Positions 3,455 through 58,298 of a stretch of 64,000 nt of DNA are shown here, one piece after another. Under the pieces are notes generated by a model. That model searched no databases and was not told the DNA's origin. It was given only the letters and a program-made list of their open reading frames with translations. How positions within the stretch are numbered: position 1 is the stretch's first letter; every line of letters begins with the position of its first letter. Source of the DNA: Nemania diffusa (lineage: Eukaryota; Ascomycota; Sordariomycetes; Xylariales; Xylariaceae); contig JBBPUQ010000005.1 of assembly GCA_038501195.1 (NCBI GenBank), positions 1,922,001 to 1,986,000 on the forward strand, written 5' to 3'. A program made the position numbers and the translations under genes.

Positions 3455-6400
3455 TTAGATATCGTTGTCGGATGAGTCACTGGGGTTCTCATGGCTTAGT
3501 TGATCCTCATCCACTGTGGTGCTCCTTATGCTACTCCGGTCACTGTTGTCGTCATCATCGTCATCGTCGCTATCGCCTTTATTGCTATCTGACTTCGACG
3601 TCATAGGATGGGACGAAACGCTCGAGCTATCAGCCTCAGAACTTTTATTCGAGGTATGACTGGCGTCATCAGAATTTGCAGTTCTCATTTTGAAATCGTG
3701 CGGCGGTTCGAACACGTGTATGATATCGCGATGGTGCCAGCATTTAGGGCATAGTCCAAAGTCGTAACAGACTTTACATTCATAAAAGGTACCATGCATT
3801 TCCTTTACGTTATTAGTTAGACATCATACAGTTCAATTGTGAGGACCTACCCAGAAACACCCATCGCACCACCATCCATTGTCGATGGGTTTGCGCTCCC
3901 CTTGATCTAATTCATCTGTGTCTTCTGTAGCTTGATCTGAATTGAGGCCTGCGGCGCGTCTCGAACTCAATAGAGTGGTAACTTCTTCTGGTGCCCCTGT
4001 ATGACGAGAGATCTGAAAAGGTGTCCATATTTCGTCTCCAATCCTGCACTTAACTGACCGATCAGCGCCTCGGTCGAGTAGGTGCTGAACGACGCCGGCC
4101 AGATCTGTCGGTTCACTCTCATGGGCTTGCATAAAACAGTCAAGTGAACCTCTTGCAGCCCAGCACAGTGCAGTCCAACCGTCCATGTCGGGCGTGTCGA
4201 TGTCTAGCTCTGGCAATAGTTCAAGGATTCGTTTGACGACCTGCAGGCGGCCTGCTTGTGCGGCGTAATGTAGTATAGAGCGGCCAAAGATGTCAACTTC
4301 CGCAAGCTTGGCGCCGGCCTTCTCGATGAGCCGAAAATTCACCTCTCCATTTAATGCCGCAAAGTGAATGGGCTTTCTTTTCAAATCATCTTCCACGTCG
4401 TGTATTGCTCCCCTGTCTAGTAAGGTGTGCACGGTGTTAGGGCGAGAGGAGAGAGCTGCTGCCGCTAATGGGCTGCCCACGTACCGACTCCGGGCATTAA
4501 CGTTGATATCAAGCTCTAGGAGGTAATTAATCAATTTGTCAGTATCTTTCATGTCGTCAGAAAACGGCAGGCAAGCTGCCATTAAAGGCGTCCCGTAACC
4601 AGAGGCAGAATCACAGTTGATGTCTGCTCCGTAGTCGATCAACATCTTTGCTATAGTATAATCGTAGTGTCGACAAGCTCGAAGTAGAGGCCCCTCTGCG
4701 CAACCGAGCCCTCTGCCATAAATATTTGGATCCGCACCCTGTTCGAGGAGATACGAGACAATCTCAACCCGTCCTTCTAGGACGGCTTGGCTCAACGCAG
4801 TGAAACCAAAGTTGTCTTGTTGAGTAAGGCTGGCCCCTGCCCTGACTAGTCTCTGAACAGCCCTTAAATTACCAATACCAGTACAGCCTATTAGAGCTGT
4901 TTCGCCATAATCACCAACCTGGTCGATGTCAATGCGTGTCTGAAACTCCATTAGAGCATTTAAACAGTCAAGTTCGGCTGTTTCTTCCCTATTAAAGGAG
5001 TCAAATATCAAATGAAGCGGACCATCTTTGTTCGCATCCTGCAATTTCAGATCTGCCCCCGCCTCCGCCAAGATGATAATTATGTCTGCATAGTGATAAC
5101 ATGCAGCAAACATGACTGGGGTCCAACCCGGCCACTTTGTGTCTTTTCTGGCCGCTATATTGACGTTGGCATTGTGATCAAGTAAAATTTTGACAGATTC
5201 TGTCCATCCTTTTGAAGCGGCGAGCACTGCGAGACACTAGGTAGTCAGCAATCGTAGGACATAATTGGGACTCCCAAAGCTTAGTAATAGCACGTAGGAG
5301 AGAATGCGGGTCAGGGACTCCCTGAACTAGGTAGTCTACGTCTACGAAACCTGCCAAAGAAGAAGCATATGATTTGAGAGAACATACTGAGTGGATTGGC
5401 CCCTTCAGAGCTCGAGAGATTGATATTCCGTGTATGCCCAGCCACCAGCCGCGTCAATTCCGGTGAGCTGCCGGTCATATGCAAGGGGATATTGCCGGCC
5501 TGAGTCGGTATGTTTGCATCTGCACCTTTCTCTAGGAGGATTTTGACGAGGGGTATAGATTTAACTCTAGTAGCCTCGTATAAAGCGGTCCTGCCATATT
5601 TATCGACTATATTGACGTCTGGGTCGAACTCAAGAAGAAATTCGGCGAGTTTGAATTGACTATTGGCGCAAGCCGAAGTTAATGTAGGCGATCCGTTCAT
5701 TTCATTTGTTGCATTTATGTCCACTTTATACTCAAGAAGCAATTTGGCTAGAGCAATTCTGTCCTTTTCGGGTACCGGTAGACTAGGCCTGGTCAATTCG
5801 AAAAGAAGGGGGTTGATAGATCGCGGGCTGGAAGCATTTGCCCCTTTTTCGAGTAGAAAACGACAGGATTCTATGTGACCGTTCATGAGCGCGTAACGTA
5901 AAACCGGCCCGCTTCCTAGAGAGTCCGCTGTCTCTATATCAACGCCATAATCCAAGAGAATCTGCATAGTTTTGCGATTGCCCCGAATAGCTGCTATAAT
6001 TATCGGGGACCTCCCTAGACCGTCCTGCTTCTTAGGATCTGCTCCTAGCTCAAGAAGCTTCTCTACCACACGAAAATTTCCGCTTTCACAGGCATGGCAA
6101 AGCGGGGTTAGTTTCAGCCTGATGTCAGTAGTTGGGTTCATGTTTGCTTTACCTTTTTTCACAAGCCAATCCACGATATCAGCATCCCCATGGATCACAG
6201 CTTGAAAAAATGGGGTTCTCTGAAGATAAGACTTGAACTCAACATTAGCCCCATAGCTCAATAAAATCTTGACATTTGAGATATGCCCAATACGAGAGGC
6301 CATGCAGAGAGGTGTCATTAGAGAGCCTTGGGCGAATGAAATTTCTGAGTCAGCTGGGGTGCCAATCTCAAGTAGTTTCCTGGCTAGGCGGTCGAGGCCG

Positions 6401-8679
6401 AGCCTCGCGGCTCGGAAAAGGTGCACACTTCCATGTTTCGATAGTTCATCTCTACCTTTAGGAGAAAGCCGATCGATTAGTTCTATAGCTAGAGATTCAT
6501 TCCCGCTTGAGCTCGCAGCCATTGCAATATTAAGAAGAACGGATTGAGGGAGGTCATCTTGTCCTTCTAGTTCGAGGAGATTGCTGACCAAACGAGCATT
6601 GCCAGCTCGTGCTGCTTCTTCTATGCCCAGTGTAACATCTAAACTACAGCTCGGCTCGAGAATTTCAGAATAGCCAAGGCTGATGAGGGCTACGAACGGC
6701 GATTTCCAGGGGTTCCTACTTCGATTGAATGGGTTTGAAAGTAACCACTATTCCAATCAGCAAACTTGAGACTAGTACAGCTACTTAAGTTTTACTTACA
6801 ACTGTTCTCGACCAGCGCTCAAGGTTCATCTCGGTTAATTTTTGGCGTAGTCTTTTGATTAGTTCTTTATTTGTACCGGATTGAACGATTGAGAAGTGAT
6901 AGGGCCAATATTTAACGGCATAACTGATAAATCCCAAGTCACTATCGACGATAAATAGCTGCTTAGACAACGAATCCAGCTCGTTTTGAACTCTAGTGCG
7001 TGCGAGATAGTCCAAGCACAGATGAGCTATATCGTAATGAGCAGTGCTAGCAACGCCATGCCAAAAATAGCACGGAGAACCTAGAGACGGAGTTCTAAAT
7101 ATGTCTCCTAGGCGTTGGTGTGCAAGGCGAACCCCGCTTTGCGTATTCACGGTGATCCCGGCAAACCAGGCAGTTCTTTGCCTCTGGAATCGATCGAAGA
7201 GGTCCCAATCTGGTAAAAATTTTTCTCCATTATCAACTGCGCTTCCGAGAAAGAATATTGTCGCAAACTCTTTTGATGATAATGGCCGTGTTGCGAATAA
7301 AAGGAAGGCAACTGCCAGTCGGGCTTTGTTTTGATCTGGTATGCTCCGAAGTACTCGATCAAGAACCGTCTCAAGTGTGTAAGTTCCTAAAATGCCATGG
7401 GTAGCCTCTAGCAGTAGTTCTTGAGTACTAAGATCCCGCCTAACTTGTTGCTCTGAGAGGATGGATAGCACTAATTCATCTACAGCCTCGGCACCCTCAA
7501 TTACCGGCCAAGACGACCTCGCTGTTTCTCGAATTGGAATTATAGGAGGCGGCTCAAACGCTTTGCCAATTTTCTGCCGGTTTATGATGTCATTTTGCTC
7601 GGTCTCGTTTTCTTTCTCTGACAAAGTGACATCCGTAGAAAGATCAATACTTGGCCAACCCGAGAGCTCGACTCCCAAGACGGAAGGGTTTTTGCTGGTT
7701 AGAAAAACATAAAGACGCTTTTCGCACCTTGTTGCATGTCGCGTCAGATACTGCATGAAAGCGTCCCGCGATGGTTTGGGGCAGACATCAAAATGATTGA
7801 TGACAAATTCAATATGTCCGTCCAAATTAACCACATGGAATTCAAACCAACTAAGTAGGTCGTCCTCAGTGCACGCCTGTTCTTCGTAAAGGCGATCTAA
7901 GAAAAGGTCCATGGGAGATCTTGAGTTCGACATGTGGTTCAAGAATGTCCAAAGCATATTAGACAAAGATCGAGATCTAACGTCAACAGGGTCGAAGGAA
8001 AAGTAAAAGATGAATGAAGGCCTTTTTTTGTCCCGCATAAATCTTAGGTGGTAATAGATATGCTCGGAGGCTCGCTGAACAAGGCCATCTTTGCTATTGC
8101 TTGCATAAACATAGAGCATCTGGGCTTCCCGTGGGTATAGCCATTTTAGCAACGCGTCGGGTAGTTTTAAGGGGGCAGCGATTGAGCCTGCCATGGTCAA
8201 GGGTTCCGTAAGTGTAGCTAGGCTGAGTAGAGCACGGTTTCCATTAAATGGTAGCCTCTGAGGTCGGGCAATAGAGGATGCATGACTTGCGAGTTCTATT
8301 TGAGAAATAAGTTGGCGGAGATATTGGGAAAGCTCAGGGACAAAGGCATCGTTAGCTAGGGGGGAAATTATCCCCTTTTCAAATGGATGGTCCATTAATG
8401 GCATGTAAGACTTGAGAATATTTGGTTCATTAGATAGGCTCGTAGATGAAGATGAAGATTTATAAAGACAGCACGAACCTGCAAAGGTTGTTGGCCAAGC
8501 GAAGCGCCTTCGTTTACGCTAACCAGATAGCCCCAACCGGAGAAGTGGGATGCTACAAATGATTCGTCGATTTCAAGAATGGAAAGAGCGAGGCTAGTGA
8601 GAGTCGCAAAGGTAGGCTGGATCTGACTAGATGAGCCCCCGGTTCTCTTATAAAAGAGGTGGGCTAACTTGTCTTCCAT
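3455..8679 (-). CDS. NLR-like protein: degenerate NACHT-like core, ankyrin repeats, C-terminal ZZ zinc finger
   Basis: Five exons (8679-8479, 8410-6800, 6747-5388, 5226-3851, 3802-3455) join in frame to 1631 residues. Introns are 68, 52, 161 and 48 bp; the first donor is GTTCGT. The N-terminal third is laid out like a fungal NACHT/STAND protein, but the P-loop position reads LYVYASNSKDGLVQ and the Walker B-like strand reads FVINHFDVC, so nucleotide binding is doubtful. From the third exon on there are many ankyrin repeats (for example GANPLMLAASKGWTES formed across intron 3). The C-terminus is a ZZ-type finger split by the last intron (CDGCFWEMHG, then CKVCYDFGLCPKCW). An acidic, serine-rich tail follows. 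By family, ankyrins sense or bind partners and ZZ fingers bind protein ligands. A role in fungal nonself recognition is inferred. The true start may lie upstream (see the adjoining relic). Confidence 0.85.
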
Positions 8680-10031: not shown

Positions 10032-10940
10032 TTAGCTCTCCTTTACGACATCATCCATGACGGCATGGAAACTGATATCGGAAATCGCTTTCAAGTCGAC
10101 TGCAGCAAGGTTTTCCAGATCATAGCCAGCCAAGCATAGGTTATTTGTAGGGTTCCGTAGAGGATCAAACAGGATCGGGTCATCCTTGCTTCGTGCACCA
10201 AAGAAGCGACTGATTTCTGTCTTCCAGTCGGTTTCCACTTTGATCTCGAAGGTGCCCTGAAATTTGTTGTCGTCTTCGCGTGATATCAGAATGGCGACGC
10301 GTAAAAAAGATGGTATGCCCGTTTTAGTTGTCCTGTTTTCGTGAATGATCCAGTTAACCCCTATTTCGTTACCAAAATCATCGCACTCCGTGGCCCCGTT
10401 GAGGACAGTAGCATCAGTTGCCGTGCCTGAGGTAGTCTTTTCCCACTTCAGTGCACCTCCGATATTGGCTCCAAAGAATCCACCACTAGCACTAACTTCT
10501 GTCCCAATCGTAGATGATTCTTGCCGGAATGTCGGCGATAGAATAAAGTGACCATACGGAGCCAAACCGTGGATCCTTGGTGTAGATGCGTTTGCCTGTA
10601 TCCCATAGAATCTGAAGCTTATATTGGCGGCGGTGATACGGCGACCCATCTTCACTGCATTGAAGCTAAGGTCGTAGACCAGAAGTGTAGCGTTGTCCTC
10701 GCCCGGCTCTATGAGGCCGTGAACAACTTCGCGGGCCTTGCAGCGAACTTCTACTGCACCGCGACGTTCGGTGATGGTGGTGCGTTGATACTGTCTCGAG
10801 GGGTCGGGATCATTGCGGGTACGGTAACCACTGCCTTCATTGCCAAGCTGGCTTAGTGGGACCTCAAATGATGCTGCTTCCACGTCGGTTACACTTAAAT
10901 TTTCGGGCGACTGGTTTGTTGACACTGCTGAAGCTGACAT
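10032..10940 (-). CDS. unassigned beta-rich protein, possible partner of the divergent ankyrin-subtilase
   Basis: Single exon, 302 residues from ATG 10940. I do not recognise a named family. No signal peptide and no hydrophobic transmembrane segment are evident. Residues 1-55 are polar and probably flexible. From about 56 to 240 the sequence alternates short hydrophobic and polar runs typical of beta strands. Residues 143-172 are rich in Gly, Ser and Thr (SSTIGTEVSASGGFFGANIG), and strands follow around IPSFLRVAILIS and FQGTFEIKVET. The C-terminus (DDPILFDP, YDLENL) is acidic. The gene is divergent from the ankyrin-subtilase gene, with 363 bp between start codons, which suggests shared regulation. 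In fungi, small pore-forming or regulatory proteins are often encoded next to subtilases that process them. That this is such a substrate is inference; it could equally be an inhibitor or sensor. Confidence 0.8.
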   Translation of the reverse strand: MSASAVSTNQSPENLSVTDVEAASFEVPLSQLGNEGSGYRTRNDPDPSRQYQRTTITERRGAVEVRCKAREVVHGLIEPGEDNATLLVYDLSFNAVKMGRRITAANISFRFYGIQANASTPRIHGLAPYGHFILSPTFRQESSTIGTEVSASGGFFGANIGGALKWEKTTSGTATDATVLNGATECDDFGNEIGVNWIIHENRTTKTGIPSFLRVAILISREDDNKFQGTFEIKVETDWKTEISRFFGARSKDDPILFDPLRNPTNNLCLAGYDLENLAAVDLKAISDISFHAVMDDVVKES

Positions 10941-11303
10941 CGTTCCGCCTATAGTAGCGCGGTGTCCTGCACCAACTCATACAATTTACTATCAATTAAA
11001 GCAATGCGTATATTTCATTCGCAAGGCGGCAGACCTACCTATCTATCCTATGAATTTTCGGCTTGTCGACTCTATTTTCAGGCAGTATGCAGCTTACGCG
11101 CCCACACTTAAGACGAGGGGTAATAGTGCGCGATCATACTGGGTACATACCGAACCGTTTAGGGCGACTTTCACATTCCCTCAGCTTTCCCACAGTGTGA
11201 TGCTACCCTTGCTCGGCTAGTCAGCGCGGGGGTCAGACGAAGGAAGACTTGGGTCTGCCGGAAACCCCCTCCCTTCACTCATAAGGCGAGGCCAAGAAGG
11301 TTT
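10941..11303. promoter_or_regulatory. shared divergent promoter interval
   Basis: 363 bp separate the start codon of the unassigned 302-residue protein (minus) from that of the ankyrin-subtilase (plus). I see no clear TATA box or named operator. The assignment rests on the divergent layout alone. Confidence 0.5.
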
Positions 11304-14300
11304 ATGCTTCGCGCACAAGAAGCCATCACACGTCTAATAATGGAATCCCCAGTATCGCCGTCTAATTATCTATTTGTGGCCGAGAATCCTAGGGCCTATG
11401 CAAACAATGATGACTCGTCCGGATCCGACTCGGAAAGTTCCGATGATCATGATCATGATGAGCTATTTGGGCTTGAAGCGAAGCCTGTCACGGAGTTGCT
11501 TGACGAAATTCTGAGTCATCTCCATCACATAGATTTGGAGCAGATTGAACATGATATTAACTTGGATCGAGAGCATCTCGCAGCCGCCACCGACGACAAG
11601 GATAACCCGACTGTTTTGCATATTTTGGCAGGCTCCAAAAAGGACGATCTACCAGCTATCGCAAAGCTTCGTCCATTAGTCGAGTTCCTTATTTTACACC
11701 CAAAGGACCTAATGTCCCAGATTGACAGGGCTGGTTGCACACCGCTTCACAGAGCAATTGAGGAAGGGAAAAAAGATCTCGTAGAATTAATGTGTCAAGT
11801 ACACCCAGAGATCAACAATATACTGTCGATCCAGAGTCATCAGAATAACAACTGTCTCCATATCGCAATTAAAGACGAGGTCGAATTTCTTCCATTTCTA
11901 ATTCAACACGCCGCGCCTCAGACACTATGTGCCAAGGACAGCAATGGTAACACGCCACTTCACTTAGCAGTCCAGTTTGATCACTGCAAACCGAATCAGC
12001 TTAGAATAATCCAAATAATGGTTGCTAAATGCGATGGAATGATGAAGGAATCAGAAGAGACTTATAACTCTGACGAAAAGAGTATTCTGACTTATAACGA
12101 TAGTCAGCTCTCGCCTTATCTTCATCACGTTAAATCTTGTGAAGCTGCTGAGGCTGGCAAGATACGGAGAAGGCAGGCACGCCATGCCAAGACCGAAAAG
12201 ACAGCCAGAGATCGAAATAAGGCTGGGCCAAATCGTGGTGATGGGCCGTCCGGAAAGGACGACAGAGCGAGACGCAGAATAGCTCCTCCCGATACCCCTG
12301 GTGCTCCGCGGGATGAGCGGCGAGAGACAATAGGTGAGCTCAAGCCGCCATCTCGTTCTGGTACGGTGCTTATAGAACCGAGCGGAGGAGCTTACTCTAT
12401 GGATTACGGTGGGAGAGAAATCGGTCTCGGAAGCTCACATGCCCCTGCACACCCAGAGTCTTCGAGATATTATAATACCGGAACTATAGTCGTTGATGAT
12501 CAAAATCTAGCGTCCGGCGCGCTCAGTGATTATTATGAAATGGATACAGCTGCTATTAGCAGAAGACCTGTAGATCCACGGCTTAATTCCATTAGACGCG
12601 GAGAGGTTTCGAGGCCTAAAACTAGGTCTAGGCGGTCTGATAAAAACGGGAGCGAAAAGGGATCTCGCACTAAGCCATCTAAGGAGTCGATCCAGGAGAT
12701 ACGTTTATTTCTCAAACAACACTATCTCCGAGAGCGGAACCACGATGCAGCGTTAGATATATTATACGGACGTAACACGACGTCGGGTGAGTCGTTGCCT
12801 CTTCAGCTCGAGCGACTTGAAAACAACAACAAGGTTGAACTCAAGCAATGCTAAAGCAACAACTACGACTGACTACTACGGTTTAGATCAACAGATATAC
12901 TTTGACCTGTCTGGATATACCACATTGACTCGTCGAAGGTTACAGAAAGGACTCAAGAACGTCAAGTTCGACGATACGCTGCAGTACGTTGAAGTACCGC
13001 AGATTACCATTGAAGGAACCGAGGCGATCCCCAACACCAGCAGGCTTAGAGGTACGATGGAAAAGACAGACCCTAATGGGAATGGCCGTACGGACCTTGC
13101 GTTTATTTTCAGCTGGCTGCGTACTAAGGGTGTCGAGACGATCCTACAGGTCATAGTCGATGATCTAGGTCCGCAGGCCCACGGAGACGAAGCCATTGAG
13201 GAGGCTACTAAGGGCTTTGGCGTCGAAGTCTGGAATTGGAAGAAAATTGACTTGTGCGCAGAGGTCATCGTAACCGCGGCCCCTACTGCCAAAGTTGCCC
13301 ACCTTTACTGGACCGGCAATAACGCCGTGCTTCGAGGCTGGTGTGATGTCGGCGGGCTAAAGAAGCTGCAGAACCTACGTGCTCTCTATATCCATGTCCA
13401 GCAAGCAAGTCTCCCAGGGCCACCGCTCATAATGTCAACTAACGTGCAACTATAGGGCCTTGATTCTCACGCTCGCACTAAAGCAAACATGTCATATTTT
13501 GAGAACCAGATGAAGGCTACCCGACCTGATCTCGAAATAACGTGGGATGGGCTCCAAATGCCACAGGACATGCCCGCCGCGGCAGGATCCAGAGCACCCG
13601 CTAACCGGCCGACGCAGGCATCACAGCACGACTGGATCAGGTGTATGACGGACTTCAAACGACTCCTGAATGAGGCCGAAGCGAACTTCTTACGCACGGA
13701 GAATAGAAAGATCGAGGACGAGATCAGTGAACCCATTAAAGTCGCGCTAATCGACGACGGCGTGAACATAAGCGAACTCGAATACACCCCGATCGGAGGG
13801 CGGAGCTTCTGTCCACGGACCGAAGAGTATGCCATCCGTATCCGGGCTTTACCCTGTAGGACATTTACTGATACATGATTTTCCACAGCAAGTCGCGCAA
13901 TTTCCCGTACTACGTCTCGAGCTCTGGCCATGGCACTGTTATGGCCAGTCAGATCTATCGGATCTGCCCTCGAGCGCAGCTCTACGTGCTCAAGCTAGAG
14001 GACTACGCAGACGAGAACGGCAACCGGCAGATCACAGCGCGAAGCGCCGCACAGGTGAGTAGGCATCCTTACCCACCACTCCCCTGGCACCACTCACCAC
14101 TCACCTGGCACCACTCACCACTCACCTCCTATCCCCCCAGGCGATCCGCGCAGCCGTCGGCCGCGGCGTGCACATAATAAGCATGTCCTGGACCCTCGAG
14201 CCGCCCAGCGACGAGCGCGCCCGCGCAGACCTAGACAGCGCCATCGCCGACGCCGTGCGCCGGCGCGTCCTCCTCTTCTGCAGCGCCAGCGACGGCGGCG

Positions 14301-14842
14301 CGCGCGAGGACCTGAGCTACCCCTACGCCGCCGCGCACAGCAGCGCCTTCCGCATCGGCGCCGCCTACGCCTCGGGCGCCACCGACGCCAACGTCGGCAG
14401 CACCGGCAAGATCGACTTCACCTTCCCTGGCAACAACGTCGAGGTCCTCTCATCGCTCGCCGGCCGAGGCGCAGTGGGAGTAGGAGGAGGAGGTGCAGGC
14501 GGGGACGCCACCTTCCGCTACCGCACCGGCTCCTCTGTTGCTACCGCCCTCGCCGCCGGCCTCGCTGCCCTCGTCCTCTACTGCGTCCAGGTGCGCCTGC
14601 TCCGCGCGCGCAGGGACGAGGCCGAGGCCGTCCGCACCCAGTTCCGCCGGCTCACGGAGCACGAGCAGATGATGAAGGCATTCCGCAGCATCGGCGTCAC
14701 CGAAGAGAGCAATTACAAGTACGTCGCTGTGTGGGATACGTTCGAAAAGCCTGTCCGGAAAAGCAAGGAGATGGCTAAAGACCGGTGGGTCGATCTCGTT
14801 GCCGGCATTGGCGCCGAATTATGCTTGAAGATCTCGGCCTGA
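11304..14842 (+). CDS. ankyrin-repeat subtilisin-like (S8) protease
   Basis: Five exons (11304-12786, 12887-13404, 13456-13826, 13889-14054, 14141-14842) join in frame to 1079 residues. The N-terminal part carries an acidic Ser/Asp patch, then about four ankyrin repeats (AGCTPLHRAIEEGKKD, NNNCLHIAI, NGNTPLHLAVQFD), then a long basic, probably disordered linker. A second region (GRNTTSDQQIYFDLSGY) leads into an S8 domain. Catalytic Asp is in KVALIDDGVNI, His in SSSGHGTVMAS, Ser in TGSSVATALAAGLAAL. A C-terminal helical tail follows. No signal peptide is visible, so it is probably cytosolic, unlike secreted subtilases. Subtilase domains are known as effector domains of fungal NLR-like proteins; here ankyrins stand in for the sensor and no NACHT is present. 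The second intron uses a GC donor. Exon 5 is much richer in GC than the rest. The start could also be the Met 12 codons downstream. Confidence 0.9.
13405..13455 (+). other. GC-AG intron
   Basis: The only junction that keeps the subtilase frame is CAA|GCAAGT to TATAG|GGC. The donor is the classic GC-type GCAAGT, and a CTAAC branch-like site (aactaac) lies before the acceptor. A GT donor 4 bp downstream would break the frame. Confidence 0.7.
14084..14125. repeat. 21-bp exact tandem duplication inside an intron
   Basis: Two identical units beginning ctggcaccactcacc lie in the fourth intron of the ankyrin-subtilase gene (14055-14140). Confidence 0.9.
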
Positions 14843-56486: not shown

Positions 56487-58298
56487 TTATAAAAAGCCTT
56501 CCACCCTAAATTGTCCCTTACTTCGCGCCCAAGACAGACCGTGAACATCCCCTATTGCAACAACATTCGAGTCAACGTCGCTCCCTCCACTCTCTTCTCC
56601 GGAGCTTTCCACCCAGTAACTTTTGAGGCGATCTGATGGCCGATGAACTACCCCGTTGCAGATATTAAGTGTCCGAACCTTCACGTACTCAGAGGGGAAA
56701 ATCTCATCCCCAAAAACCACAGATACATTAAGTTGTTCGTTAAAGTTAGCTGTTTGCTCAACTTTTGCTCCTTCGACTTGATGCACCAAGCTCTCTATGA
56801 CGTACTTCCCATTCAGGACTTGATCTTGAGAGTGATCTTTCGCAGTAAAGACCTGACAAAACCATTCTACTAATCTCCCTGTGACTCTGATGCCGAGAAA
56901 TATAAAACTTGAACACTCCCTAGCTCGCAGACCCAGTAGAGCGCAGCCAATTTTCGCCGAGGTCTGCTGCGTCAAAGGCGTTAAGCGTAATATACTAGAT
57001 TCGTGTTCTGTACGACTCCAAACATCAAGGTCTGTTATCTCCCCGCTCTCGTTATAGGTACTGATTTTAAATGATATCCTTTGGTCGAATAAGGGCAGCA
57101 TACCGTATGCAGACCGGTTTACGTCCGCGAAGGAGGCATTATCAAAGGAGATATATGTATGCGGGGATTCGGGTTTTAGTCTTGTTGCTCTCACAAATAG
57201 TGGCTCTGCAACGAGGCCACGGAAGAAATGGGGATTGAGAGGAACGGGGTGGGGTGGGTATGAAGTTCGTCGAAGATAGAGGTTACCGTTCTCCCTATTT
57301 CTACCGATCGCTAAACTAGTCACTGGAATACAGGGCATCCGCCGGTCTAAAGACGAAGCCTCCGGATTCATAATCACGTTCATTTTGAGGAAGTAGTAGA
57401 ACTGTTTGCCCGTGTCAATCACTGGTAGCCGAATGGATAAACCAACGTTTGTCATAGCGAAAATCGAGTCTTGATGCATATCATCGATGCTGACGAAGTT
57501 TCCGGCGTGGCAGAATGTATTTGGCGAAGGCGCAAGCAAGCTGGCCCAGTCATCCGGCACAGATTGAGTCCAGGACCAGCAGAATATCGTCTGGTCATTG
57601 GTGACTTTGATGATCTCCTCCTGAAGGCGAGTGAATGCTTTCATGCCTTCACCGTACAATAACGGCATGTTAACATCGAAAAGACCAAGCATACAATATG
57701 CAAGGTCTTCAACTCGTGTAGTGGACCTTTCTGCAAGCCAGGACATCCTTCTTCCAACACTAGCCGTTATCGCCAAATCGGGGTGAGTGAGAATATCCTC
57801 GCTAATGCCTGTGACCAAAGCTACATCGGTGACCAAAGTCCCACCCCTACTGCCAATCTTAGACCAATCTACAGCGTAGAAGGTGAGCTCTCTTGGAGCG
57901 AGTAGTTCTTGGAGCGTCCAGCCACGTGTAAACCAGCGGCTCTTCCAAAATTGCGATATTGACCGGTCATCTACAACATCACTGAGGTAGGCATAGCAGA
58001 TCTTCGACCTGGCGTACCATTGATACATTGAGTTGATAGCTTCACTCAGCTCAGCTGAGCTCGTCTTGTCGATGCAATTTGTGTCGACCCAAAGGTAATC
58101 CAGACTGTGGCTCTGTGCCTTTTTGCATGCCCCTTCTATCTTGTCGAAACCGGCTTTGCTCGAGGCAACCTGCGGGTTCTGCCAATCTTGGTACGAGACT
58201 TCCTCACGGCCCCAAGTATGCGATAGGATAGCATACGGCGGAATGTCGTCCCCGTGGAACTCTTCGAGCAACATGGAATTGACGTTGATTAGACGCAT
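56487..58298 (-). CDS. HET-domain (heterokaryon incompatibility) protein
   Basis: Single exon, 603 residues from ATG 58298. The N-terminal 250 residues carry a full HET domain: YAILSHTWGREEVSYQDW, KAGFDKIEGACKKAQ, LDYLWVDTNCIDKTSSAE, SINSMYQWY-type AINSMYQWYARSKICYAYL, FTRGWTLQELLAP and VEDLAYCMLGLFDVNMPLLYGEG. HET domains trigger regulated cell death during nonself recognition and are related to TIR domains. The remaining 350 residues are beta-rich with no recognised repeat, so the sensor part is not of the WD40, ankyrin or NACHT type. This subfamily (HET plus a conserved uncharacterised C-terminal region) is common and highly expanded in filamentous ascomycetes. The last residues, HGLSWARSKGQFRVEGF, are typical of it. 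Confidence 0.95.
   Translation of the reverse strand: MRLINVNSMLLEEFHGDDIPPYAILSHTWGREEVSYQDWQNPQVASSKAGFDKIEGACKKAQSHSLDYLWVDTNCIDKTSSAELSEAINSMYQWYARSKICYAYLSDVVDDRSISQFWKSRWFTRGWTLQELLAPRELTFYAVDWSKIGSRGGTLVTDVALVTGISEDILTHPDLAITASVGRRMSWLAERSTTRVEDLAYCMLGLFDVNMPLLYGEGMKAFTRLQEEIIKVTNDQTIFCWSWTQSVPDDWASLLAPSPNTFCHAGNFVSIDDMHQDSIFAMTNVGLSIRLPVIDTGKQFYYFLKMNVIMNPEASSLDRRMPCIPVTSLAIGRNRENGNLYLRRTSYPPHPVPLNPHFFRGLVAEPLFVRATRLKPESPHTYISFDNASFADVNRSAYGMLPLFDQRISFKISTYNESGEITDLDVWSRTEHESSILRLTPLTQQTSAKIGCALLGLRARECSSFIFLGIRVTGRLVEWFCQVFTAKDHSQDQVLNGKYVIESLVHQVEGAKVEQTANFNEQLNVSVVFGDEIFPSEYVKVRTLNICNGVVHRPSDRLKSYWVESSGEESGGSDVDSNVVAIGDVHGLSWARSKGQFRVEGFL

Follow-up and report, generated by a model that had tools for sequence, protein, structure and literature searches.

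We analyzed a 64,000-nucleotide stretch of the Nemania diffusa genome (assembly GCA_038501195.1, contig JBBPUQ010000005.1, positions 1,922,001 to 1,986,000 of the forward strand), here called the window, and describe a divergent gene pair within it. One gene encodes an S8 protease with ankyrin repeats, and the other encodes a 302-amino-acid (aa) protein with a predicted fold of the leukocidin/alpha-hemolysin type. The pair is set in a genome of 55.6 Mb on 16 contigs. In window coordinates, its features are as follows.

10032 to 10940, minus strand: open reading frame of 302 aa, ATG to stop in a single exon, with no need of an intron.
10035 to 10145, minus strand: C-terminal extension, residues 266 to 302, past the part aligned to solved toxins (aligned ranges stop at 263 to 266; predicted local distance difference test [pLDDT] score of residues 271 to 290, ~93).
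10383 to 10553, minus strand: predicted long beta hairpin, residues 130 to 186 (strands 130 to 151 and 162 to 186), from the secondary structure of the model; tip (148 to 167) with pLDDT of <50.
10425 to 10514, minus strand: Gly/Ser/Thr-rich stretch, residues 143 to 172, predicted to be a membrane stem whose two arms alternate, from composition, alternation, and subthreshold Pfam Leukocidin matches of five relatives over the matching stretch.
10941 to 11303, no strand: intergenic region between the two divergent genes, 363 bp, or 399 bp with the protease start at 11340, from reading frame borders and the start of the relative P0044.
11304 to 14842, plus strand: ankyrin/S8 protease gene, five exons, 1079 aa, without internal stop, from the splice model.
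11304 to 12786, plus strand: exon 1, with ankyrin repeats at about residues 144 to 240 (11733 to 12023), from Pfam and the splice model.
12887 to 13404, plus strand: exon 2, encoding the middle domain, with a GC-AG intron after it (13405 to 13455), from the splice model in agreement with P0044.
13456 to 13826, plus strand: exon 3, with catalytic Asp767 at 13753 to 13755, from the splice model and homologue alignment.
13889 to 14054, plus strand: exon 4, with catalytic His805 at 13929 to 13931, from the splice model and homologue alignment.
14141 to 14842, plus strand: exon 5, Peptidase_S8 core, with Ser978 at 14534 to 14536 and Asp897 (14291 to 14293) at the oxyanion-Asn position, from Pfam and homologue alignment.

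The splice model was settled by comparison with P0044, an annotated relative that is 98.5% identical to the model in a form shorter by one codon. The introns measure 100, 51, 62, and 86 bp; the 51-bp intron uses a GC donor. P0044 begins at residue 13 of the product (ATG at 11340), and this ATG may be the true start; the 363-bp divergent promoter of an earlier interpretation made from the DNA by itself (the sequence-only reading) holds when counted from the first ATG. Pfam places Ank_2 (E = 6.9e-14) and Peptidase_S8 (E = 6.6e-10) on the product and the triad D767/H805/S978 is complete, in accord with the ankyrin-bearing protease and full Asp/His/Ser triad of that reading. Among the 120 homologues listed (of 263), Asp is present in 119, His in 118, and Ser in 119. 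The nearest named relative among the matches listed is from Nemania diffusa (99%). The protease had also been called cytosolic-looking, and no secretion signal was noticed, as judged by visual inspection of the N-termini and a hydropathy scan.

The 302-aa protein had been said to match no family. It passes no Pfam cutoff but is not an orphan: a sequence search returned 43 homologues, of which those with organism names come from Pezizomycotina-type fungi and are labeled "hypothetical" (nearest named relative, Hypoxylon argillaceum, 98%). A profile search (profile A2) listed 50 proteins, 21 of them new, and no viral relatives were found in BFVD at E ≤ 0.001. No secretion signal was noticed by eye, and hydropathy reaches a maximum of 0.94 at residue 268. 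Relatives of 400 to 560 aa are present in Trichoderma and others, and a longer paralogue of 492 aa in this genome (L015:6935-8425, minus strand) has a C-terminal stretch that weakly resembles SlyX.

Fold searches with the predicted model of the 302-aa protein matched the leukocidin/alpha-hemolysin type, to which the rows shown, among those listed, belong. The model predicts a leukocidin core fold, that of a pore former and, on the rows listed, apparently not that of a gasdermin or an aerolysin. The structural check proposed in the sequence-only reading thus came out in its favor. The Gly/Ser/Thr-rich stretch that it had noted at residues 143 to 172 recurs across 44 aligned relatives (G+S+T of 0.378, versus 0.221 and 0.225 in the flanks). 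Family-averaged hydropathy alternates in two arms (residues ~142 to 153 and ~154 to 168) with a phase change between them, as expected for two membrane strands. A glycine-rich alternating stem hairpin, a feature of the leukocidin family, is present in the predicted structure, with an alternation that is not specific to the stem. In a lax Pfam scan of the 44 rows, Leukocidin (PF07968) was the commonest family (5/44—P0008, P0012, P0013, P0014, and P0022; best E = 0.0036, all below the cutoff), followed by EF-hand_8 (four rows). The Leukocidin matches span profile positions 48 to 116 and protein residues 114 to 182, which is the predicted stem part. PF07968 had no match to the window's own protein at E ≤ 10; searched directly in the genome it again gave none at E ≤ 10, an uninformative result, as 14 control genomes were likewise empty.

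Since the toxin-aligned ranges stop at residues 263 to 266, the last 37 residues form an extension (271 to 290 confidently placed), which may serve as a regulatory tail. An [LF]FG loop at residues 246 to 248 is conserved, with F247 in 28/44 and G248 in 40/44 aligned rows; on the strength of this conservation, we considered it as a putative site of cleavage comparable to F238 of HET-Q1, which is described in the accessible part of PMC10989679.

Two other identities were considered and not adopted. No solved gasdermin matched the 302-aa protein at a protein E ≤ 1 or a profile E ≤ 10, in a search that gave a gasdermin match for L033 at E = 2.5e-31. A single weak aerolysin row appeared in the fold search (E = 2.5e-3; probability, 0.30).

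A total of nine family members were found in this genome, seven as open frames of >300 aa and two as fragments. Three members (C1:513849, C4:5692229, and C6:4143907) were reached from one paralogue only (E = 9.8e-4, 7.5e-4, and 6.2e-9). An S8 gene adjoins five of the nine, divergently in the window, L014, L016, and L024 (first met near an S8 gene and later recovered independently) and in tandem at L015. The chance of at least five of nine adjoining an S8 gene is ~7e-9, with a reach of 10 kb and 25 S8 loci, a number assumed from 32 matches; a Fisher value of 0.015 was obtained with classes assigned by hand. Beside these members, ankyrin repeats exceed the Pfam cutoff in the window and L015, are subthreshold at L014 and L016, and were not seen at L024. 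The L016 protease is represented by the catalytic-Ser region only (profile E = 1.3e-16; E = 8.5e-10), has no Pfam match, and may be decayed. As for the remaining members, there was no S8 match within 40 kb of the two fragments or in the 30 kb of L017 to L019, and at L042 the member has a convergent frame that is ankyrin-like by eye. A NACHT frame and ankyrin repeats lie near the L017 member (L017:4649-5677, L017:2-1600, and L019:8479-9435, all minus strand), and this member may answer to a NOD-like receptor instead. Elsewhere, S8 and middle-domain pieces on opposite strands at G000:C10:104845-107430 may be what is left of a further ankyrin/S8 gene. In the window itself, two ankyrin-repeat frames adjoin the pair and a HET-domain frame lies farther along (3833-6522 and 56487-58298, minus strand).

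The pairing recurs in other fungi, where co-location was judged from record names and equal contig sizes, gene context being absent from the database. At least 13 of the 43 small-protein homologues lie on the same contig as an S8 relative (at least 13/31 on contigs of ≥20 kb), a lower bound in that 120 of 263 S8 homologues were listed and 119 were usable. Locus tags of the pair are consecutive in Conoideocrella, Neonectria, Cercophora, Fusarium nygamai, and F. lateritium; in Trichoderma gracile they differ by two. The two proteins also diverge in parallel: across 16 pairs, 4 of them from this genome, identity in the small protein correlates with identity in the last S8 exon (r = 0.95, reached by 0/5000 permutations; Mantel test), although part of this value comes from species divergence. 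The test excluded L016 as well as P0001, which is nearly identical to the window, and its identity for L024 versus P0005 (0.64) was taken from a short local alignment. Homologues of the small protein thus adjoin S8 genes repeatedly, both in this genome and in other ones, and the predicted fold is not that of an unrelated enzyme, the two points on which the sequence-only reading had let its proposal depend.

Proteases paired with the family form a lineage of their own. When S8 pieces were placed in a midpoint-rooted tree, those of the window, L014, L015, and L024 fell in one clade (support, 0.99), together with all 17 homologues used and L026, whose S8 gene had no partner that could be found within 10 kb. 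Twenty homologues had been chosen for the tree, of which P0118, P0107, and P0133 were dropped for want of a cutting motif; L016 was dropped as well. Outside the clade are L033, beside a gasdermin; L020, L022, L029, and L030, beside another small-protein family; and L028. The oxyanion-Asn position is Asp in 118 of the 120 homologues listed and Ala in the other 2, whereas the six S8 domains outside the clade have Asn (read by eye for those of this genome). The convertase PC2 carries the same Asn-to-Asp oxyanion change.

This arrangement resembles known fungal cell-death systems. According to the accessible parts of PMC10989679, PMC12881547, and PMC10197012, HET-Q2 cuts the HET-Q1 gasdermin near its C terminus, and ~80% of fungal gasdermin genes lie in clusters with protease genes, of which many carry ankyrin, TPR, or WD40 sensors. 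As in HET-Q2/HET-Q1 and the Q2L-protease/gasdermin clusters of those sources, a repeat-bearing (ankyrin) S8 protease gene here adjoins a small predicted pore former and, as in the Q2L clusters, there are many copies per genome. The window protease shares with Q2L proteases an S8 domain with its triad and a repeat-type sensor (the ankyrin repeats of exon 1), but its gene lies beside a leukocidin-like rather than a gasdermin gene, and it belongs to another clade, with Asp at the oxyanion position. Its putative executioner, unlike HET-Q1, has no sequence match to solved gasdermins and has a leukocidin-type predicted fold. The pair also follows the two-gene logic of sensor plus membrane executioner seen in NWD2/HET-S modules; those use amyloid signaling and a helical HeLo executioner (PMC12881547, accessible part), whereas proteolysis and a beta-barrel executioner would be expected here. 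With the alpha-hemolysin/leukocidin toxins (PF07968; NetF, NetB, CytK, beta- and delta-toxin, LukGH, and Vibrio cytolysin), the 302-aa protein shares the predicted core fold and stem hairpin, and its family shares subthreshold Pfam matches over the stem. In contrast to these toxins, it is fungal, apparently cytosolic, below the Pfam cutoff, and ~10% identical, with an extra C-terminal segment and a protease gene alongside.

Other pairs were seen in the same genome. A HET-Q1-type gasdermin (L033:7080-7982, plus strand; E = 2.5e-31 to 9uv9) adjoins an ankyrin/S8 gene (4203-6888, minus strand). Small proteins of another family (L029:3203-4048, L020:3590-4450, L022:3009-3701, and L030:6775-7650, all plus strand) each adjoin an S8 gene; they have no significant Pfam name, are interlinked by weak phmmer matches, and are possibly a third executioner class. 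DUF7580 occurs in three of the four S8 genes beside them. Hemolysin III is a membrane-protein family distinct from the leukocidin/alpha-hemolysin type. According to the accessible part of PMC5915685, a horizontally transferred five-gene cluster of Colletotrichum encodes two ankyrin proteins, a serine peptidase, a hemolysin-III protein, and a hypothetical protein.

We consider it fairly probable that the pair is a two-gene cell-death module, with a switch like that of HET-Q2/gasdermin and a leukocidin-type pore former as executioner. Given a HET-Q1-type gasdermin beside an ankyrin/S8 gene in the same genome, the pair is most simply read as that switch fitted with a different executioner. The ankyrin/S8 protein would be a cytosolic sensor-protease that, once set off by a trigger, would cut the adjoining, dormant 302-aa protein, perhaps freeing its disordered N-terminal tail (residues ~1 to 45) or the C-terminal extension. 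The cut protein would then assemble on the fungus's own membrane, where stem hairpins would form a beta-barrel that kills or permeabilizes the producing cell. The trigger, the cleavage and the end it removes, the pore and its target membrane, and the death of the cell are steps that we infer. For the new protease/executioner pair of the sequence-only reading, fold and recurrent linkage thus lend support, and the functional link of cut, activation, and death keeps its conditional standing.

Several observations weigh against such a module. Model confidence is moderate (mean pLDDT, 72.8; <50 at the stem tip), Foldseek template modeling scores are low (0.19 to 0.31 by query), and the two structure models were built on common alignment rows. 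Other predicted strands, such as residues 227 to 239, alternate as strongly as the stem or more so, and alternation by itself is therefore no proof of a stem. No family member reaches the PF07968 cutoff of 22.4 bits (top relative, 17.6 bits). Four of the nine members in this genome have no detected adjoining S8 gene, the 21 more distant relatives are all on contigs other than those of the S8 homologues listed, and the oxyanion Asp could alter protease activity.

The four members with no S8 gene detected alongside would suit chance neighbors, with an ordinary intracellular protease sharing its divergent promoter with a protein unrelated to it. However, adjacency at five of nine members, four divergent and one tandem, is hard to reconcile with the chance estimate given above, and the pairing is found again in other genera, which leaves coincidence very improbable. 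Linkage and codivergence would suit any tight partner, and the small protein might keep its leukocidin fold yet form no pore, acting as an inhibitor, bait, or sensor partner of a protease whose oxyanion Asp suggests an unusual enzyme perhaps in need of one. Such a regulator would have no need of the glycine-rich alternating stem, which is kept even in divergent members, and we regard this role as quite unlikely. A defensive toxin against competitors or grazers, kept in the cell and activated by the protease on hyphal injury, would agree with a predicted fold that is that of secreted toxins. It is nonetheless unlikely, considering that no signal peptide was noticed on either protein (by eye and hydropathy) and that the accessible parts of PMC12881547 and PMC10197012 present ankyrin/S8 sensors as intracellular controllers of cell death.

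The protease-gated two-gene kind of module is already known, and what would be new is the executioner fold. HeLo-type proteins and gasdermins are the executioners named in the accessible parts of reviews of fungal cell death. No fungal leukocidin-like executioner was described in the literature searched, which left out preprints and most subscription papers and whose silence is no proof of novelty, and the main text of PMC9815663, PMC10197012, and PMC12881547 contains neither "leukocidin" nor "hemolysin." With slightly better than even confidence, we propose that in Pezizomycotina an endogenous, cytosolic protein of the leukocidin/alpha-hemolysin type serves as a dedicated executioner of cell death, under the control of an ankyrin/S8 lineage of its own whose oxyanion hole is changed. 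Next to gasdermins, these fungi would then have a second pore system under protease control, expanded within individual genomes and with a possible role in allorecognition or antiviral immunity. If this is true, a fold best known from bacterial toxins would join the eukaryotic cell-death toolkit, fungi would swap executioners under a similar S8 sensor design, and a "hypothetical" fungal family would gain a fold and a partner, along with a mechanism that can be tested.

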